NCBI GenBank assembly: GCA_020402865.1
Contig: JADBYT010000001.1
Coordinates: forward strand, 1-64,000
Direction: 5' to 3'
DNA from: Bacteroidota bacterium
Lineage (GTDB): Bacteria; Bacteroidota; Bacteroidia; Palsa-965
Length of the DNA: 64,000 bases
Part shown: positions 47,141 to 57,221 of the stretch, one piece after another
How the letters are laid out: each line of letters starts with the position of its first letter
How positions within the stretch are numbered: position 1 is the first letter of the stretch
Made by a program: the position numbers and the translations under genes
Notes under the pieces: generated by a model
Database searches by the model: none
Seen by the model: the letters and a program-made list of their open reading frames with translations, nothing else
What the model was told of the DNA's origin: nothing

Positions 47141-47210
47141 TATAGCTGGTGGTAGATTACTTCGATGGGCTTTTACCGCCTCAACTAAATTTATCATTTA
47201 TTATAATATT

Positions 47211-47256
47211 AAAGCAAAGAAGCTGTCTCTTCCTTTTGAGACAGCTTCTTTGCTTT
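47211..47256. terminator. Bidirectional terminator after the suf operon
   Basis: A perfect 19-base-pair stem (47211-47229 with 47238-47256, core GAAGCTGTCTC) lies between the convergent DUF2480 gene and a T9SS gene. A related sequence forms the hairpin at 51074-51111. Confidence 0.88.
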
Positions 47257-47270
47257 GAGTTGATTTCTGG

Positions 47271-48887: not shown

Positions 48888-48965
48888 CGTTTTTGTGTTG
48901 AGTTAAAAAAGACCGAAAGGTTTTTCCCTTCAGTTTATCGTGAATACTTCCGTACGAAACATATA

Positions 48966-50783
48966 TCAGTGCTGATACACAAGCCGTGTTACCAAGGTGC
49001 GCTCATCACTAATTAAACGAACGATATATACCCCCTGACTGATTCCCAGCTGTTCAAAGTCGAGGGTAAAACTGTTCCATCCGCGCTGTACATTTGATTC
49101 AGCCTGAGCATATACTACCTCACCATTTAAATTGAGTAGCGAAAGCTGGCATTTACCAGCAGAAGTTTGCAGGTGTGTAATTTCGGCAACCGATTGTGTG
49201 GGGTTGGGATACACTTTCAAGGCTCGCTGGCTGTAGTCGCTGCTTTCTTCAATGCCGGTAATTACTATTGTTTGCGTGGTTGTGTAACTGCCGCACGGAT
49301 TAGTTTGTGTGAGCGTAATTGTGTAGGTTCCCGGTGCTGAATAAGTATGTGTGGCAGGATTATTTATAGTATCTGTATGGCCGTCGCCAAAATCCCAGAT
49401 AAATCCGGTTAAATCAGAATTGTTATTGGAGGCTATGATAGCCGATCCGGAAATTGAAACGGAAAAGCTGCTGGTAATGGCCGACGACTGCATGTTTAAA
49501 CTTACAGGAACGGCAACCCAGTTGTTGTTGTTATTTGATTCGATGAAATTGTTGTCGGGGTCGGTAATTGAAACGAGGTAATAATTACCGTTGCATACAC
49601 CGGTAAGATCAATATTCATATCGGGCAATGCCTGACCGTATATATCCAGTTTCCCGGTATAAATTCCCTGATCCATACCACAGCCGCTTACTTCACCAAA
49701 GGGTGCATTCGGGATATCATTCATGGTAAGAATATTTCCCGCACTGTCACGGCAATACCCCGGATTGTTTGTGCAATCACCAAGATTTACAAGACAGAAA
49801 CTAACCTTTGAGCCTGATTTTACAATCGGCCAGGTAGTCGCATCTGGATTTGATGTAGGTGTGCGCAATGTAAACCACGACCAGTTATTGATGTGTATAT
49901 GTCCGTGCGTGGGGTGATAACTCATTGTAGCGCCTGTGAGCGTATCGTATGAAGTAATTGAAGCCCCGTTTTTGTGATAAATGCGCTGAAGAAGTTTTTC
50001 GGTTGGCGGGTTTCCGTCCGGACAAATGGTGGTTGAGCAGGGTACACTAACCGTGTCGCAGTAGCACAGCCCAGAACTATGTATTTCCATCGGCCCCCAG
50101 CCGATATTGGGTGTGGCATTGCTCAGCGTAAGCAAGCCCGGAAACTCGGTATGCTCGGCCTGAATAATATCGGCTGAGGCTGTCATGTCGGGAAGCAGAT
50201 CGCAATCGCTGCTTCCGTCGGGGCAAACGCATGAATTACCATTTAATATTCCGCAAGGCCCAACGGCAAGCGAGTCGTTCGGAGGATTACTGCAAAAGAG
50301 AATTGCTCCGTAAACAATGTATCCCTCTGCGGTGGGTACTTCATCCTTCACGCATAGAAACCAGGTTCCGTTTGGATTCTGCCCCGTGTTAAAATAGTTC
50401 AGGCTGTTTTCAGGAATGTAGGTGTTTGAAAAAGGGCTCGAACCATTGGCAATTTGTGTAATTCCCGAATTGGATAAACAGGTGCCCTGATAGCTTGTTC
50501 CCGTTCCGCCCTGGTTGTTGATGAGCTTTACCGTGTCGCCCGCAGGCGAAACCATACTCACGTCCAGATTACCAATGTTGGCGTGATTAATACTAAAGCA
50601 CACGGTGCAAATACCAAAACTACTGTCGGTGCTACCAGGTAAACCACTTACCACAATAGGTAAACAGGTTTGCTGATTATCATGAATACTGTCGCCTGAA
50701 TTGCTAAAAAACGACTGTGCATTTGCTTCTGTATAGCAGATGCAAAACAGCCCTGCGAGGCTAACGAGGATCTTGTGTAGCAT
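48966..50783 (-). CDS. T9SS-secreted lysyl oxidase-like protein 1
   Basis: The 605-residue protein has a signal peptide, a proprotein-convertase P domain (about 30-165: LDVSMVSPAGDTVKLINNQGG, NPNGTWFLCVKDE), a lysyl-oxidase domain (about 196-430), a PKD domain (FIWDFGDGHTDTINNPATHTY) and a T9SS sorting domain. The copper site H-x2-H-x-H-x-H is at His290, His293, His295 and His297. Lys326 (KVSFCL) and Tyr382 (DIYG) match the Lys320 and Tyr355 of human LOX (sequence recalled), which form the lysine tyrosylquinone cofactor. It should therefore oxidise amines or lysine side chains at the cell surface. The gene is AT-richer than its tandem paralogue. Confidence 0.85.
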   Translation of the reverse strand: MLHKILVSLAGLFCICYTEANAQSFFSNSGDSIHDNQQTCLPIVVSGLPGSTDSSFGICTVCFSINHANIGNLDVSMVSPAGDTVKLINNQGGTGTSYQGTCLSNSGITQIANGSSPFSNTYIPENSLNYFNTGQNPNGTWFLCVKDEVPTAEGYIVYGAILFCSNPPNDSLAVGPCGILNGNSCVCPDGSSDCDLLPDMTASADIIQAEHTEFPGLLTLSNATPNIGWGPMEIHSSGLCYCDTVSVPCSTTICPDGNPPTEKLLQRIYHKNGASITSYDTLTGATMSYHPTHGHIHINNWSWFTLRTPTSNPDATTWPIVKSGSKVSFCLVNLGDCTNNPGYCRDSAGNILTMNDIPNAPFGEVSGCGMDQGIYTGKLDIYGQALPDMNIDLTGVCNGNYYLVSITDPDNNFIESNNNNNWVAVPVSLNMQSSAITSSFSVSISGSAIIASNNNSDLTGFIWDFGDGHTDTINNPATHTYSAPGTYTITLTQTNPCGSYTTTQTIVITGIEESSDYSQRALKVYPNPTQSVAEITHLQTSAGKCQLSLLNLNGEVVYAQAESNVQRGWNSFTLDFEQLGISQGVYIVRLISDERTLVTRLVYQH

Positions 50784-50840
50784 AATTTAAGTACTGAGCA
50801 CGATGAAGGTAATTCTGCACCACAGGGTGTGAGTGGCAGA

Positions 50841-50893
50841 TGTATATTCGTGGGCTTCGGCTGTATATTCGTTGTGCTTAAATGTATTTTTGT
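50841..50893. promoter_or_regulatory. Triple 21-bp-spaced direct repeat, candidate LytTR operator
   Basis: TGTATATTCGT at 50841 and 50862 and TGTATTTTTGT at 50883 are spaced exactly 21 bp apart. They lie 58-110 bases upstream of lysyl oxidase gene 1. Spacing by two helical turns is the LytTR pattern; binding is inferred. Confidence 0.4.
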
Positions 50894-51010
50894 AGGCAAC
50901 ACAGTAGGGCTACATCTGCCTTTTAAGTCCCAGGCTATAGATGCCTGATGGCACGCGGGCAGTTTAATAATGCAAATATGAAACAACCACAAGCGGGAAA
51001 TCGTTGCGTG

Positions 51011-51061
51011 TAACCAACACACCTATACTGTAACGAACGGTAAATACAAAGTAACTAACGG
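51011..51061. promoter_or_regulatory. Triple TAACnAAC direct repeat, candidate LytTR operator
   Basis: TAACCAACAC (51011), TAACGAACGG (51031) and TAACTAACGG (51052) are 20 and 21 bp apart. ACGAACGGT is the complement of the ACCGTTCGT core recognised by the LytTR protein AlgR, as I recall it. They lie about 230-280 bases upstream of lysyl oxidase gene 1. Confidence 0.4.
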
Positions 51062-51073
51062 CTATACAGCAGC

Positions 51074-51111
51074 AAAGAAGGCTGCCTCAAAAGTGTGAGA
51101 CAGCCTCCTTT
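51074..51111 (-). terminator. Hairpin after lysyl oxidase gene 2
   Basis: 51074-51089 pairs with 51096-51111 (core AGGCTG.CTCA) with two wobble-type mismatches. It lies 46 bases beyond the gene's stop and resembles the hairpin at 47211-47256. Confidence 0.65.
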
Positions 51112-51157
51112 TATTAACGTACTATTTCAATGCTAAATTTCTAACCGGCTCAATGCA

Positions 51158-52978
51158 CTACCGGCTCAGCACCACCCGCTTCACAGCCGAGTAATTGCCG
51201 GCCGATACACGCACAAGGTAGCTTCCGTTTGCAAGCCCCGCTGCATCCAGATCAAGCGGCAGGGTGTATTTTCCGGCGGGCATACGTTGCTGCACATTCA
51301 GCACACGCTGGCCAAGTACATCAAACAACTCCACGTGCATCATTTCTCCATCCGGTAGTATGCCGCTGAGCTGCACAATGCCCGGTGTGGGATTGGGCGC
51401 CACCTGCAGCAACTGTTCGTTGAAGCCTTCCGTTTCGCCAATGCCGGTAATGGTCACAACCTGCGTGGAGGTGTAGCTGCCACAGCCGTTTATTTGCGTA
51501 AGCGTAATGGTGTATGTGCCCGGCTGCGCATACACGTGTGTGGCCGGATTGTTAAGCGTGTCGGTATTGCCGTCGCCGAAATCCCATTCAAAGCCCAGCA
51601 GGTCGGTGTTGTTGTTGTTTACTACTACCGCAGTGCCGCTCTGGCTCATATTGAAACCGGTACTGATGGGGTTTGACTGCAGGTTGAGGGTAATGGGCAC
51701 GGCAACCCAGTTGTTTTCGTCGTTTGTTTCGAGGAAGTTGTTGTCGGGATCAGTTTCTGATACGACGTAGTAGCTGCCGTTGCACACGCCGGTTAAATCA
51801 ATATGCATATCGGGCAGGCCGGAACTGTAAATGTCGAGCATGCCGGTGTAAATTCCCTGTTCGGTGCCGCAGCCGCTTACGCGGCCAAACGGGGCATTGG
51901 GAATACTATCCATGGTTAGTACATTGTTGAGTGTGTCGCGGCACCAGCCGTTGTTGCTTGTGCAATCGCCAAGGTTGATGAGGCAGAAGCTGATTTTTGA
52001 TCCGCGCGCCACAATGGGCCAGTTGCGTGCATCGGGTTCGTTGGGGTCAAATGTGCGTAGCGTAAACTCCGACCAGTTGTTCACATGTACGTGCCCGTGC
52101 GAAGGGTGATTGCTCATGCGTCCCTGTGTGAGGGTGTCGTAGTAAGTAATTACGCCATTGTTTTTGTGATAGATGCGCTGGTAAAGTTGCTGTGTAGGTT
52201 GTCCGCCGTTGGGGCATACGCTGGTGGTGCAGTTTACCGGCACGGTATCGCACCAGCAGAAGTTTGAAGCGCGTATTTCCATGGGCCCCCAGCCAATATT
52301 GGGTGTGGCGTTGCCCACGCGTATAATGCCCGGCTGCTCCTGATGATCCTGAATAATGTAATCGTAAGAAGCCGTCATGTCGGGCAACAGGTCGCAGTTA
52401 GTTGAAAAGCCGTCGGGACAAAAGCAGTTACCGCCGTTGTAGTAGTCGCACGGGCCGGGCATTTGCGGCGGATCGGGCGGCGGGTTATTGCAGAAGGTGA
52501 GTGAGGCCTGCACAATCATTCCCGTATCATTCGGAGCCTCATCACGTATGCCAAAACGCCATGTGCCGTTGGGGTTTTGCCCCTGATTGTAATAGTTCAG
52601 GCTCACTTCCGGAATGAATGTGCCGGTAAACGGGGCCTGTCCAAGCAGTACCGATGTAGTGGCCGCCATGTTCAGGCAGGTGCCGCTGTAATTGTTGCCG
52701 CCGCCGCCCTGGTTATTGATGAGCCTGATTGAGTCGCCGGCAGGAGAAATCACATACACATCAAGATCGCCAATGTAGCTGTGTGCTACATCAAAACAAA
52801 CCGTGCATAAGCCAAACGTACTGTCGAGCGTATTGGGGAGGCCGCTTACGTTAATGGTGGTGAAGTGGTACTGATTATCCTGAATAGGTGCAGTAGCTGT
52901 GCTGCTGAACGTTTGTGCATGCAGCGTTGCGGTAACTGCAAGCAGGAGAATACAAAGAATGCGGAGGCGTTTTTTCAT
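51158..52978 (-). CDS. T9SS-secreted lysyl oxidase-like protein 2
   Basis: The 606-residue paralogue of the previous gene has the same architecture: signal peptide, P domain (LDVYVISPAGDSIRLINNQGG), lysyl-oxidase domain, PKD domain (FEWDFGDGNTDTLNNPATHVY) and T9SS sorting domain (LQVAPNPTPGIVQL to KRVVLSR). The copper motif is at His291, His294, His296 and His298 (HPSHGHVH). Cofactor residues are Lys328 (KISFCL) and Tyr384 (DIYSSG). The many cysteines of the LOX domain are kept in both copies. It is GC-richer than gene 1 (32 of 60 bases at 51481-51540 against 25 of 60 at 49321-49380), so the duplication is not recent or the copies have different histories. Confidence 0.85.
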   Translation of the reverse strand: MKKRLRILCILLLAVTATLHAQTFSSTATAPIQDNQYHFTTINVSGLPNTLDSTFGLCTVCFDVAHSYIGDLDVYVISPAGDSIRLINNQGGGGNNYSGTCLNMAATTSVLLGQAPFTGTFIPEVSLNYYNQGQNPNGTWRFGIRDEAPNDTGMIVQASLTFCNNPPPDPPQMPGPCDYYNGGNCFCPDGFSTNCDLLPDMTASYDYIIQDHQEQPGIIRVGNATPNIGWGPMEIRASNFCWCDTVPVNCTTSVCPNGGQPTQQLYQRIYHKNNGVITYYDTLTQGRMSNHPSHGHVHVNNWSEFTLRTFDPNEPDARNWPIVARGSKISFCLINLGDCTSNNGWCRDTLNNVLTMDSIPNAPFGRVSGCGTEQGIYTGMLDIYSSGLPDMHIDLTGVCNGSYYVVSETDPDNNFLETNDENNWVAVPITLNLQSNPISTGFNMSQSGTAVVVNNNNTDLLGFEWDFGDGNTDTLNNPATHVYAQPGTYTITLTQINGCGSYTSTQVVTITGIGETEGFNEQLLQVAPNPTPGIVQLSGILPDGEMMHVELFDVLGQRVLNVQQRMPAGKYTLPLDLDAAGLANGSYLVRVSAGNYSAVKRVVLSR

Positions 52979-53073: not shown

Positions 53074-54969
53074 TTAATACGCCCGCACGTTTTTACCTTC
53101 CATGTAATTCATAAAGGCTCTGTTTACTACGCGGTTGCCACCCGGCGTGGGATAATCGCCGGTAAAATACCAGTCGCCGGTGTGGCCGGGGCAGGCATTG
53201 TGCAGGCCTTCAATAGACTGGAACACAATTTCAATGTTGGCATTTACGCCGGCGGGTGTAAGCAATTCGGAGATCTTGGCCGAAACTTCATCGGCGGTAA
53301 AGGGTTTGTAAATTTCCTTCACCACATTTACAATCTGCTCGTCAGGTAAATCTTCCTGCGCCTTGGCTTTTTCATACACCTCATCCAGCAAATTTTCGCG
53401 GAATGTCTTGCGCAGCAATTCTACGGCAGCCTGAAAGGCAATGAAATCGCCCATTTTGGCCATGTCAATGCCGTAGCAGTCGGGGTAACGAATTTGCGGT
53501 GCCGATGATACGATTACAATTTTGCGCGGCTTCAGACGGTCGAGGATTTTGATAATGCTGTGCTTGAGCGTAGTGCCGCGCACAATCGAATCGTCGAGCA
53601 CCACCAGATTATCGCCGGGTTTTACAATGCCGTAGGTGGTATCATACACGTGCGCCACCATGTCGTCGCGCTGGCGGTCGCTGGTAATGAATGTGCGGAG
53701 CTTGGCATCTTTGAGCGCAATTTTCTCAATGCGCGGTTGCATGGAGAGGATGTCTGAAAGCTCCGGCTCGGTCACATTTTTCAGTGAGAGTATTTTGTGG
53801 CGTTTTACAGTATTCAGGTAATGGTGCAAACCGTCAACCAGACCGTAAAAGGCAATTTCGGCTGTATTGGGTATGAATGAAAACACGGTATTGTGCAGAT
53901 CATAATCAACCGTTTTCAGCACCTTGTCGGTAAGCTGGTGGCCGAGGCTTTTGCGTTCGGTGTAAATATCGCGGTCGCTGCCACGCGAAAAGTAAATACG
54001 CTCAAACGAGCACGATTTTTTCTCGCGGGGTGTGCGCACCTGTTTCTCGGCGTAGCTGCCGTTTTTCTTGATAATAAGTGCGTGTCCCGGCTTCAGTTCG
54101 TTGATGCTGTCGATGGAGACATTGAACGCCGTTTGAATTTGCGGACGTTCGGAAGTTACCACCACCACTTCTTCATCGGCATACCAGAACGCCGGACGGA
54201 TGCCGTTCGGGTCGCGCAGTACAAACGCATCGCCATGACCAAGCATACCGGCCATGGTGTAACCGCCATCCCATTTCTTGCCGGCGTCTTTCAGTATCTT
54301 CTGTATGTCAAGGTGCTCCGCAATGAGTCCGGTAATTTCTTCGTTGCTGTGGCCTTTGCGCTTGAACTCCTGAAAAAGTCCTTCCACTTCCCGGTCAAGG
54401 AAGTGACCGATTTTCTCCATCACTGTAACCGTGTCGGCTTTTTCTTTGGGGTGCTGGCCCAGTTCCACCAAATGGTGGAAAAGCTCGTCCACATTGGTAA
54501 GGTTAAAGTTGCCGGCCACCACCAGATTGCGGGTAATCCAGTTGTTCTGGCGCAGAAACGGATGGCAGTTTTCCACGCTGTTTCCGCCGTATGTGCCGTA
54601 GCGCAGGTGCCCCAGCAATAACTCGCCGCTGAACGCCACGTTTTTCTTAAGCCAGGCCGCATCGGTTATCTTGTCGGGATGTTCGCGCAGCGCATGCTCA
54701 AACTTCGTATTGATCTTGCCGAAAATCTCCTTAATTGCAGCCGGATCGGTAGAGCGGTAGCGGCTTATGTAGCGCGTACCCGGTGGCACATCAAATTTTA
54801 TGGTAGCCACACCCGCGCCGTCCTGCCCCCGGTTGTGCTGCTTTTCCATTAACAAATACAGCTTGTTCAGCCCGTACATGGGCGTGCCGTATTTGTCTAT
54901 ATAATACTGATAGGGTTTAAGCAGGCGGATAAGAGCTATGCCGCACTCGTGTTTGATCTGATCGCTCAT
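53074..54969 (-). CDS. purF: Amidophosphoribosyltransferase
   Basis: PurF makes phosphoribosylamine from PRPP and glutamine, the first step of purine synthesis. From the ATG at 54969 the protein has 631 residues, the long form typical of Bacteroidota. The N-terminal glutaminase begins at Cys9 (KHECGIALIRL), so eight residues must be removed to free the nucleophile; HNRGQDGAGVAT follows. The phosphoribosyl-transfer site VVLDDSIVRGTTLKHSI is in the second half. The frame is open 14 codons upstream, but a TAACTTTG promoter box overlaps that part, which supports the shorter start. Confidence 0.95.
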   Translation of the reverse strand: MSDQIKHECGIALIRLLKPYQYYIDKYGTPMYGLNKLYLLMEKQHNRGQDGAGVATIKFDVPPGTRYISRYRSTDPAAIKEIFGKINTKFEHALREHPDKITDAAWLKKNVAFSGELLLGHLRYGTYGGNSVENCHPFLRQNNWITRNLVVAGNFNLTNVDELFHHLVELGQHPKEKADTVTVMEKIGHFLDREVEGLFQEFKRKGHSNEEITGLIAEHLDIQKILKDAGKKWDGGYTMAGMLGHGDAFVLRDPNGIRPAFWYADEEVVVVTSERPQIQTAFNVSIDSINELKPGHALIIKKNGSYAEKQVRTPREKKSCSFERIYFSRGSDRDIYTERKSLGHQLTDKVLKTVDYDLHNTVFSFIPNTAEIAFYGLVDGLHHYLNTVKRHKILSLKNVTEPELSDILSMQPRIEKIALKDAKLRTFITSDRQRDDMVAHVYDTTYGIVKPGDNLVVLDDSIVRGTTLKHSIIKILDRLKPRKIVIVSSAPQIRYPDCYGIDMAKMGDFIAFQAAVELLRKTFRENLLDEVYEKAKAQEDLPDEQIVNVVKEIYKPFTADEVSAKISELLTPAGVNANIEIVFQSIEGLHNACPGHTGDWYFTGDYPTPGGNRVVNRAFMNYMEGKNVRAY

Positions 54970-55008
54970 GGCGCTTTGCCTTGTTGTTTCTGATGTTACA
55001 AGGAAGTG

Positions 55009-55016
55009 CAAAGTTA
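55009..55016 (-). promoter_or_regulatory. Promoter -7 box TAACTTTG for purF
   Basis: The minus-strand sequence fits TAnnTTTG and lies 39 bases before the purF ATG, giving a normal short leader. Confidence 0.55.
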
Positions 55017-55197
55017 CGATTTTTATGTGGGTTGTGGTTAATGCAGATTAAGTGCTCCGGCCGTATTTACGGATAGCACTGTTTACCTGCATTATGGATC
55101 AATCTTGCGCTCAACTGCAACCGTAGGCTGCTTGATAAAAAGAAAAGTAACCACCGCCGCCGGCACGGTTTCGCCCAAAATCGCCACCTTTGTGTTC

Positions 55198-56217
55198 ATG
55201 GCGCATTACTTCACCATCGACATTCACACCCATATTCTTCCCGAACATATTCCCAACTGGAAAGAAAAATTTGGATACGGCGGTTTTATTCAGCTGGATC
55301 ACTACAAACCCTGCTGCGCACGCATGCTGCGCGACGATGGTAAGTTTTTCCGCGATATTGATGACAATTGCTGGAGCGCCGAAACCCGCATGCGCGAAAG
55401 TGATGAACAACTGGTCGATGTACAGGTGCTTTCAACCGTGCCGGTCATGTTCAGCTACTGGGCCAAGCCCGAAGATTGTCTCGAATTATCGAAATTCCTC
55501 AACGATCATATTGCCGAAATCGTAACGCGTTATCCTAAACGTTTCGTTGGTCTTGGCACTGTGCCCATGCAGCATACCGAATATGCCATACAGGAATTGC
55601 GGCGCTGCAAGGAAATTGGTTTGCGCGGCATTCAGATTGGTACCAATGTAAATCAGCTCAACCTCAACGAGCCGCAGTTTTTCGAGATTTTCGCCGCCTG
55701 CCAGGAGCTCGAAATGGCCGTGTTCATTCACCCGTGGGAAATGATGGGCGAGGAAAACATGCAGCGTTACTGGCTGCCGTGGCTGGTAGGCATGCCCGCC
55801 GAAACATCACGTGCAATCTGCTCCATGCTCTTTGGCGGTGTATTTGAAAAACTGCCGCATTTGCGGGTGGCCTTTGCCCATGGCGGCGGCTCGTTTCCCG
55901 CTACAATCGGTCGTGTACAGCATGGGTTCGACTGCCGGCCTGATCTGGTGGCTATCGACAATCCCGTACCGCCCCGCAACTACCCCGGCCGTTTCTGGAT
56001 CGACAGCCTTGTGCATGATCCAAAAGTCCTCGAACTGGTGGTCGATCAATTTGGCGCAAACCGCGTAGCCCTGGGCAGCGACTATCCTTTCCCCCTCGGC
56101 GAAAACCGCCCCGGCGAACTCATCCGCAGCATGCCCTGGCCCGACGAAAAGAAAAACATGCTGCTGCATGGCGCCGCTCTGGAATGGCTCGCGCTGGATA
56201 AAAGCTTTTTCGCGTAG
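55198..56217 (+). CDS. 2-amino-3-carboxymuconate-6-semialdehyde decarboxylase
   Basis: ACMSD decarboxylates the unstable product of 3-hydroxyanthranilate cleavage, steering tryptophan breakdown away from quinolinate. The 339-residue amidohydrolase has the metal motif IDIHTHILPEHIPNW, IHPWEMM, FAHGGGSFPATIGRVQHGF and the metal Asp in LGSDYPFPLG. The stretch PWLVGMPAETSRAICSMLFGGVFEKLP is typical of animal and bacterial ACMSD. The frame is open upstream, but the ATG at 55198 starts right at the metal-binding strand and follows a CACCTTTG box by five bases. It converges with the dioxygenase gene that makes its substrate. Confidence 0.92.
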   Translation: MAHYFTIDIHTHILPEHIPNWKEKFGYGGFIQLDHYKPCCARMLRDDGKFFRDIDDNCWSAETRMRESDEQLVDVQVLSTVPVMFSYWAKPEDCLELSKFLNDHIAEIVTRYPKRFVGLGTVPMQHTEYAIQELRRCKEIGLRGIQIGTNVNQLNLNEPQFFEIFAACQELEMAVFIHPWEMMGEENMQRYWLPWLVGMPAETSRAICSMLFGGVFEKLPHLRVAFAHGGGSFPATIGRVQHGFDCRPDLVAIDNPVPPRNYPGRFWIDSLVHDPKVLELVVDQFGANRVALGSDYPFPLGENRPGELIRSMPWPDEKKNMLLHGAALEWLALDKSFFA

Positions 56218-56286
56218 CGTCTCCGGTGGCGCCCGGCTCCCTCCCCAGCTCCCTCCCCAGCTCACTCCCCGGGCGCGAACCTCGCG

Positions 56287-56424
56287 CCCCACCGCACAGC
56301 CCCACCGCACAGCCCCACCGCACAGCCCCACCGCACAGCCCCACCGCACAGCCCCACCACACAGCCCCACCACACAGCCCCACCGCAAAGCCCCACCGCA
56401 CAGCCCTACCACACAGCCCCATCC
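56287..56424. repeat. 13-bp minisatellite (CCCCACCGCACAG, 10 copies and a part)
   Basis: Ten full 13-base units run from 56287 to 56416, with an eight-base partial unit to 56424. Units 1-5 and 9 are identical; units 6, 7, 8 and 10 have one or two changes. It fills the gap between the convergent ACMSD and dioxygenase genes. The minus strand has a GGGG run in nearly every unit. Confidence 0.95.
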
Positions 56425-56446
56425 AAAAATCCCCCTCCCGCACTCC

Positions 56447-56968
56447 TCACGCAATCACCGGCGGCGGCTCCATCACATGCCCGCAGGCCTTGCACGTGCG
56501 CAGTGCCTCGCTGCCATAAAACTTCGAAAACACTCCCTGAAACTGATTCGCAATATCAGTAAGTACAAAATACTCTTCATACAATTTGGTATTGCATTTC
56601 TCGCAAAACCAAAGCAGTCCGTCCTTTTCACCTTCACGGCGCTTACGCTCCATTACAAGCCCTACGGTGTTGGGCCCGCGCATCGGGTTGTGCGGCACGC
56701 GCGGCGGAAGCAGAAAAATATCGCCTTCGCGTATCGGCACATCCACCGCTTTGCCGTCTTCCTGTATGCGCACGGTTACATCGCCTTCAAGCTGGTAGAA
56801 AAATTCCTCGCTCTCGTTGTAGTGAAAATCCTTGCGCGAGTTCGGCCCGCCTACCACCATCACAATAAACTCAGCGTCTTTATACACCACTTTATTGTTT
56901 ACCGGCGGTTTAAGCAGGTGGCGGTTTTCTTCTATCCAGACTTTAAAGTTAAACGGACGTGTAATCAT
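56447..56968 (-). CDS. 3-hydroxyanthranilate 3,4-dioxygenase
   Basis: This ring-opening enzyme converts 3-hydroxyanthranilate to ACMS in the kynurenine pathway. The 173-residue cupin has the iron ligands His49 and Glu55 (FHYNESEEFFYQLEGD) and His93 (RVPHNPMRG), and conserved active-site Arg residues. The C-terminal rubredoxin-like metal site is present: Cys122 and Cys125 (WFCEKCN), Cys159 and Cys162 (RTCKACG). The ATG at 56968 gives the usual MITRPFNFKVWIEENRHLLKPP-like start; another ATG lies two codons upstream. Its 3' UTR would include the G-rich strand of the minisatellite. Confidence 0.94.
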   Translation of the reverse strand: MITRPFNFKVWIEENRHLLKPPVNNKVVYKDAEFIVMVVGGPNSRKDFHYNESEEFFYQLEGDVTVRIQEDGKAVDVPIREGDIFLLPPRVPHNPMRGPNTVGLVMERKRREGEKDGLLWFCEKCNTKLYEEYFVLTDIANQFQGVFSKFYGSEALRTCKACGHVMEPPPVIA

Positions 56969-57221
56969 GAGCATCTGTTTTTTTGAAGAACGAATATAAA
57001 CAAGTACCTGCGATTGGGTGCAATTTTGTTTCCTGATAACTGTCAATGAAAGTAAAATGATTTGCAGGAGCGAACCTCACACGCAGTTAAATTCGGTCAG
57101 GCTCTTGCTTTCGCTATTGCGGAGAAAGCGCTCAATCAAGGCTAGGAATTCATACCAGCCGTGTTTCAAATTAGCGTCCGTCTGGCAGCTTCGCGGCAAC
57201 CGTCCGTCAAGGGTTTTCCGG

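Follow-up and report, generated by a model that had tools for sequence, protein, structure and literature searches.

Tandem lysyl oxidase-family proteins with type IX secretion sorting domains in a Bacteroidota genome

Two adjacent genes in a 64,000-nucleotide stretch of an uncultured Bacteroidota bacterium of the class Bacteroidia (assembly GCA_020402865.1, contig JADBYT010000001.1, positions 1 to 64,000; hereafter the window) likely encode exported members of the lysyl oxidase (LOX) family that act as copper amine oxidases with a lysine tyrosylquinone (LTQ) cofactor. From homology, residue conservation, a modeled fold, domain architecture and the translocon of a type IX secretion system (T9SS), we infer the copper binding, cofactor, catalysis, location and substrate of the two proteins, P0002 and P0001, and put the probability that they act as such oxidases outside the cell, on its surface or in the medium, at roughly three in four.

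Under this scenario, P0001 and P0002 would be made with a signal peptide and, by means of their C-terminal sorting domains, would cross the outer membrane through the T9SS, then either staying on the surface or entering the medium. Copper coordinated by His294, His296 and His298 (P0002 numbering) would oxidize Tyr384, and Lys328 would add to the oxidized side chain to give LTQ. The mature enzyme would act on primary amines, whether in peptidyl lysine or in small molecules, converting them to aldehydes and producing hydrogen peroxide and ammonia. The P and PKD domains may be adhesive or spacer modules that keep the catalytic domain near its substrate. Cross-linking is one of several possible outcomes.

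Domain architecture, cofactor residues and predicted fold

P0001 and P0002 are encoded on the reverse strand with 374 bases between their open reading frames (ORFs) and share one domain order: a signal peptide-like N-terminus, a P domain, the LOX domain, a PKD domain and a T9SS sorting domain (Table 1). Pfam matches to P_proprotein, Lysyl_oxidase (PF01186), PKD_4 and Por_Secre_tail were found in each protein, the PF01186 scores being 26.3 and 27.0 bits (curated cut-off 20.4). The T9SS type A sorting domain is over the cut-off in both (Por_Secre_tail, 40.5 and 32.0 bits; TIGR04183 of NCBIfam, 38.8 and 36.7 bits); the signal peptides were judged from sequence alone. Overall, P0001 and P0002 share 54.7% identity; the figure rises to 67.5% for the LOX domain and falls to 23.8% for the sorting domain. 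In P0002, Lys328 lies in GSKISFCL and Tyr384 in LDIY; in P0001, Lys326 lies in GSKVSFCL and Tyr382 in LDIY. A preliminary description of this DNA had placed H-x2-H-x-H-x-H, KxSFCL and DIY motifs in both ORFs, and its coordinates and motifs are exact; the Pfam and NCBIfam matches likewise bear out the fusion to P, PKD and sorting domains that it described. A further ORF at 50648-51022 on the reverse strand was dismissed as spurious, as it overlaps P0001 in another frame. A third LOX gene in the same genome (L001, G000:C2:42911-43120; 730 amino acids) encodes an N-terminal LOX domain and a final sorting domain, and retains the Lys and Tyr along with the motif HPTHGHNH.

The same genome encodes SprA (a frame of 2457 amino acids, E 2e-164) and yields at least 150 sorting-domain matches. 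A working T9SS in the host is therefore plausible, and the fusion of LOX to a sorting domain is no isolated oddity.

The Lys and Tyr from which LTQ would be built, and the putative copper ligands, were placed by comparison with animal LOX. Relatives were gathered from whole genomes plus a named genome collection, giving one profile for the branch to which the window proteins belong (A1) and another for a second, more animal-like Bacteroidota LOX branch (A2). Searched against the PDB, A1 had human LOXL2 (5ze3) as its sole match below E 0.05 (E 3.8e-6), with the Tyr of DIY aligned over the LOXL2 DMY, that is Y689. A2 matched 5ze3 at E 6e-34, with the His motif, the Lys of GHKASFCL and the Tyr of DMY all aligned, and hhalign of the two Bacteroidota branches (98.4%) placed His, Lys and Tyr in register. 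The LOXL2 counterparts of the window residues are His623, His626, His628 and His630, Lys653 and Tyr689. In LOXL2, LTQ is built from Lys653 and Tyr689, while His626, His628 and His630 are metal ligands (PMC9659206). The earlier equation of the copper site and the Lys/Tyr pair with the cofactor residues of animal LOX is thus supported by both profile alignments to 5ze3 and by the hhalign bridge between them.

Among 107 distinct window-type LOX domains from Bacteroidota relatives, all have the Lys and the Tyr and 104 have the three copper His (H-x-H-x-H). The first His of the four is found in 86 domains, with Asp at this position in most of the others. In an alignment of 97 LOX domains with a mean column identity of 47%, only 21 columns are invariant; as the Lys and Tyr columns are among them, their conservation is far from chance.

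In AlphaFold2 models the P0002 domain has the LOX catalytic-domain fold. The domain modeled alone (97 sequences; predicted local distance difference test score, pLDDT, 92.8; predicted template modeling score, pTM, 0.89) superposed on LOXL2 5ze3 with a Z of 13.7 and a root-mean-square deviation (rmsd) of 3.1 over 163 residues; the next-best chain was a CARDB domain at Z 7.5. In a model of the P-LOX-PKD region (46 sequences, pLDDT 90.2), the LOX part matched LOXL2 with Z 14.4 and rmsd 3.0 over 164 residues, residues 1-144 matched the P domains of Kex2 and furin (Z 13.1), and the C-terminal part matched PKD structures (Z 11.9). The separation of Lys and Tyr in such a model, which the preliminary description had offered as a check, is an invalid, non-discriminating criterion for LOX function. 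In the AlphaFold model of human LOX the two residues are about 4 Å apart. A large distance could not refute the assignment, however, because the LOXL2 precursor crystal (5ZE3) itself has them 16.6 Å apart (PMC9659206).

Table 1. Features of the LOX gene pair and its surroundings in the window, followed by three relatives with altered copper motifs, listed under their own coordinates
Feature	Position	Strand	Basis or remark
purF-like amidophosphoribosyltransferase gene, upstream of LOX pair	53074-55011	-	
Terminator-like hairpin, 11 pairs plus T run, between purF-like gene and P0002	53017-53042	-	Consensus match only
P0002, first LOX protein of the pair, 606 aa	51158-52978	-	ORF list; Pfam/NCBIfam
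P0002 P domain, proprotein convertase P-domain fold, without attached protease	52463-52909	-	PF01483, 39 bits; model
P0002 LOX domain	51662-52405	-	PF01186; profile A1; model vs LOXL2 5ze3
P0002 putative copper motif HPSHGHVH (H291/H294/H296/H298)	52085-52108	-	Sequence motif
P0002 Lys328, predicted LTQ-precursor Lys (= LOXL2 K653, human LOX K320)	51995-51997	-	Alignment
P0002 Tyr384, predicted LTQ-precursor Tyr (= LOXL2 Y689, human LOX Y355)	51827-51829	-	Alignment
P0002 PKD domain	51437-51661	-	PF18911, 53.7 bits; model
P0002 T9SS type A sorting domain	51170-51403	-	PF18962 / TIGR04183
P0001, second LOX protein, 605 aa	48966-50783	-	ORF list; Pfam/NCBIfam
P0001 LOX domain	49473-50216	-	PF01186; profile A1
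P0001 putative copper motif HPTHGHIH (H290/H293/H295/H297)	49893-49916	-	Sequence motif
P0001 Lys326, predicted LTQ-precursor Lys	49806-49808	-	Sequence motif
P0001 Tyr382, predicted LTQ-precursor Tyr	49638-49640	-	Sequence motif
P0001 T9SS type A sorting domain	48981-49214	-	Pfam/NCBIfam
Terminator-like hairpin after P0001, before downstream T9SS gene	48912-48934	-	Consensus match only
P0003, downstream T9SS-secreted protein, 538 aa	47271-48887	-	Pfam
Relative L009	328-2412	-	Copper motif replaced by NVLSSSFY
Relative L013	340-2421	-	Copper motif replaced by HGGGSLYN
Relative L022	784-2862	+	Copper motif replaced by RGGGSLYN

Distribution in Bacteroidia and gene neighborhoods

The P-LOX-PKD/T9SS branch is large. 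Some match was found in 115 of 395 sampled Bacteroidia genomes, and in 65 of these 395 the best E was below 1e-50 (manual count from the match table). The full P-LOX-PKD-sorting architecture occurs in 51 of the 107 relatives; in the other main form, LOX is followed by the sorting domain and the N-terminal P domain is missing. The plasmid collection searched gave PKD and sorting-domain matches alone and no LOX. In the tree, a quick version with moderate branch support, P0001 groups with L031, which is from the same family, and P0002 adjoins both, a placement suggesting that a duplication within this family gave rise to the pair.

In the window, the neighboring genes and the LOX genes look like separate transcription units. 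The upstream purF-like gene is likewise followed by a LOX gene at nine further Bacteroidia loci. An operon joining it to the LOX pair was considered and rejected, as a terminator-like hairpin stands between them; given that hairpin, the gene order was probably kept through common descent and not for its function. Downstream, P0003 was tried as a conserved partner or substrate of the LOX pair and likewise rejected, being an orphan passenger with a hairpin ahead of its gene: in 59 related genomes nothing matched its residues 1-348, and the hits obtained fell in the sorting domain, the longest of them beginning at residue 349. Accordingly, no conserved partner for the LOX pair was found in the window. 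Beside the LOX genes, no transport or amine-catabolism gene was seen.

Other features of the window lie farther out. At 55105-57046, adjoining amidohydrolase and 3-hydroxyanthranilate dioxygenase-like genes resemble, from their translations, part of a tryptophan/kynurenine breakdown route. At 56286-56421 a 13-base unit (GCCCCACCGCACA) is repeated in tandem about 10.5 times (94% matches), and a 12-base array lies directly before this stretch at 56232-56270. A near-perfect 20-pair hairpin at 47210-47257, between two convergent genes, is probably a bidirectional terminator.

Neighbors of the LOX genes in other genomes may hint at function. The metagenome-assembled genome palsa_967 (PLYJ01) has 16 P-LOX-PKD loci (L066, L068, L070, L072-L080, L082-L084 and L089), the LOX domains of which are 70-90% identical, with one pair at 98.8%. 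A gene for a T9SS SBBP beta-propeller protein is present in 14 of the 16, directly downstream in most; in the remaining two, the contig or fetched stretch ends shortly after the LOX gene. An Omp28-like protein is encoded in nine. The pattern resembles repeated copying of one cassette. Weaker SBBP-like neighbors follow LOX in L050, L052 and L053, and one is present in L131. These beta-propeller and repeat-protein neighbors are candidate LOX partners.

Evidence against the oxidase assignment and possible roles

Several observations weigh against the window proteins being active oxidases. Their PF01186 scores exceed the cut-off by just 6-7 bits. The branch is patchy, with nothing matching in two near-complete genomes from the same genus; the LOX genes are therefore dispensable rather than essential. 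In addition, three relatives (L009, L013 and L022) have none of the three copper His and yet keep the Lys and Tyr, so conservation of the latter pair alone is no proof of cofactor formation. The proteins could instead be inactive surface modules in which the LOX fold is kept for binding and the Lys and Tyr are structural. The clustering of L013 with L022 within copper-type sequences fits such a pseudo-oxidase, as does the variable first His across the branch. However, in both window proteins and in 104 of the 107 relatives the Lys and Tyr are accompanied by the three copper His, and animal LOX is said to be able to do without the first His (PMC4448552), which leaves loss of activity an unlikely account of the branch. 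Far less probable still, to the point of being nearly negligible, is a spurious PF01186 match hiding a CARDB or Ig-like beta-sandwich. Such a reading could appeal to a weak CARDB hit, below threshold, near the C-terminus of the domain and to CARDB structures ranking second in the fold comparison, but LOXL2 is far ahead there (Z 13.7 vs 7.5) and is the only structure that the profile matches below E 0.05, and the catalytic motif set is conserved; profile, conservation and fold results all contradict it.

If P0001 and P0002 are oxidases, they may serve to cross-link covalently either the secreted proteins of their own cell or a biofilm matrix, as the preliminary description proposed for a surface amine oxidase with a built-in quinone. 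Of that proposal, the LOX identity, the full set of copper and LTQ residues, the fusion and the export signals have stood; no substrate was found, and the nearest co-oriented T9SS gene is an orphan behind a terminator-like hairpin. Cross-linking is the best-known function of the LOX family in animals (PMC4448552), a route for surface export is present, and some relatives adjoin large T9SS repeat or beta-propeller proteins that are possible substrates. Conversely, the co-oriented T9SS neighbor in the window is the orphan P0003, the neighboring genes differ between lineages, the secreted T9SS passengers have little lysine (a median of about 2%), and a 2015 survey judged cross-linking of bacterial collagen-like proteins unlikely (PMC4448552). 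We regard this role as possible but doubtful. Lysine content was also considered as a sign of self-protection by lysine depletion, and this idea was rejected. The P-LOX-PKD region of P0002 has two lysines in all, one of them the predicted cofactor Lys. However, at the same loci the median lysine content was 1.23% for LOX-family proteins vs 1.92% for other T9SS passengers (paired test, p = 0.10); because it is not clearly below that of other passengers, it is no evidence for self-protection.

Alternatively, P0001 and P0002 may be active extracellular amine oxidases with a small-molecule or nutritional role, deaminating polyamines, amino compounds or amine-bearing antibiotics, or producing hydrogen peroxide against competitors. 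The archaeal enzyme HTU-LOX, the single prokaryotic LOX characterized in the papers found, has relaxed specificity and oxidizes small amines, glycine, aminoglycosides and polymyxin. This puts nutritional and antimicrobial roles on a par with cross-linking in plausibility, and the patchy, non-essential distribution of the branch is in keeping with them. The fusion to P and PKD domains, on the other hand, suggests binding of large partners, and the lack of transport or amine-catabolism genes seen beside the LOX genes also argues against a small-molecule role, which we consider equally possible but doubtful. More speculative is a wider scheme, improbable in our estimation, in which a large, undescribed family of T9SS-exported LTQ oxidases in Bacteroidia modifies dedicated surface partners. 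The palsa_967 loci (about 15 LOX copies, mostly with SBBP and often with Omp28-like genes) would then be enzyme-substrate cassettes for a cross-linked surface layer or matrix, and the window pair would be a minor local expansion.

If active, P0001, P0002 and their relatives would be amine oxidases with an in-built quinone, exported to the bacterial surface by the T9SS. It would then become testable whether LOX chemistry served bacterial surfaces or matrices apart from the animal extracellular matrix, and with it the original role of the LOX family. Genus-mates without the branch are natural cases for comparison, and concrete candidate substrates come from the repeated LOX/beta-propeller cassettes.

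Comparison with known lysyl oxidases

The preliminary description knew of little work on bacterial LOX proteins. This holds for the T9SS branch, which was not found in the open-access literature covered, but not for bacterial LOX in general. Grau-Bove et al. reported LOX in Bacteroidetes and other bacteria in 2015, with the copper His and the Lys/Tyr pair conserved (PMC4448552), and an archaeal LOX was found to be active in 2019 (PMC6452851). In the open-access literature searched, no paper was found that treats LOX, Bacteroidetes and type IX secretion together, and the ten top-ranked papers of a broader search included none that names LOX in such a context, although one may exist elsewhere. 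Thus, while bacterial LOX was already known, the multi-domain, T9SS-exported branch and its size appear undescribed. The 2015 survey found prokaryotic members to be mostly LOX-only and the first His to be absent in bacteria (PMC4448552); the window-type branch differs from them in its fusion to P, PKD and T9SS sorting domains (51 proteins) and in having the first His in 86 of 107 members.

A second Bacteroidota branch ("type 1": L004-L008, L019 and L026) comes from the same phylum and has its His, Lys and Tyr aligned with those of the window-type branch ("type 2"). It is nearer to animal LOX, scoring 90-118 bits to PF01186 vs 22-40 bits for type 2, has a CH-x-H-x-H motif without the first His, and forms a separate clade in the tree. 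Among prokaryotic LOX proteins with copper and LTQ residues, HTU-LOX of the archaeon Haloterrigena turkmenica is an active, beta-aminopropionitrile-sensitive amine oxidase that accepts lysine polymers and many small amines (PMC6452851), and it offers the nearest functional evidence for the branch. The window proteins, themselves putative oxidases, resemble it in these residues; unlike them, HTU-LOX is archaeal and has no P, PKD or T9SS modules described.

With human LOXL2/LOX (5ZE3), P0001 and P0002 share the fold (Z 13.7-14.4), the H-x2-H-x-H-x-H motif, the Lys in GxKxSFCL with a Phe after it and a Cys right after that Phe, and the Tyr in DxY. They differ in overall sequence (about 20% identity), in extra loops and cysteines, and at the His of the LOXL2 FSHYDLL motif (His637), which by eye is Glu in P0002 and Trp in P0001. 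In place of the SRCR domains of LOXL2, the window proteins carry P, PKD and T9SS sorting domains.

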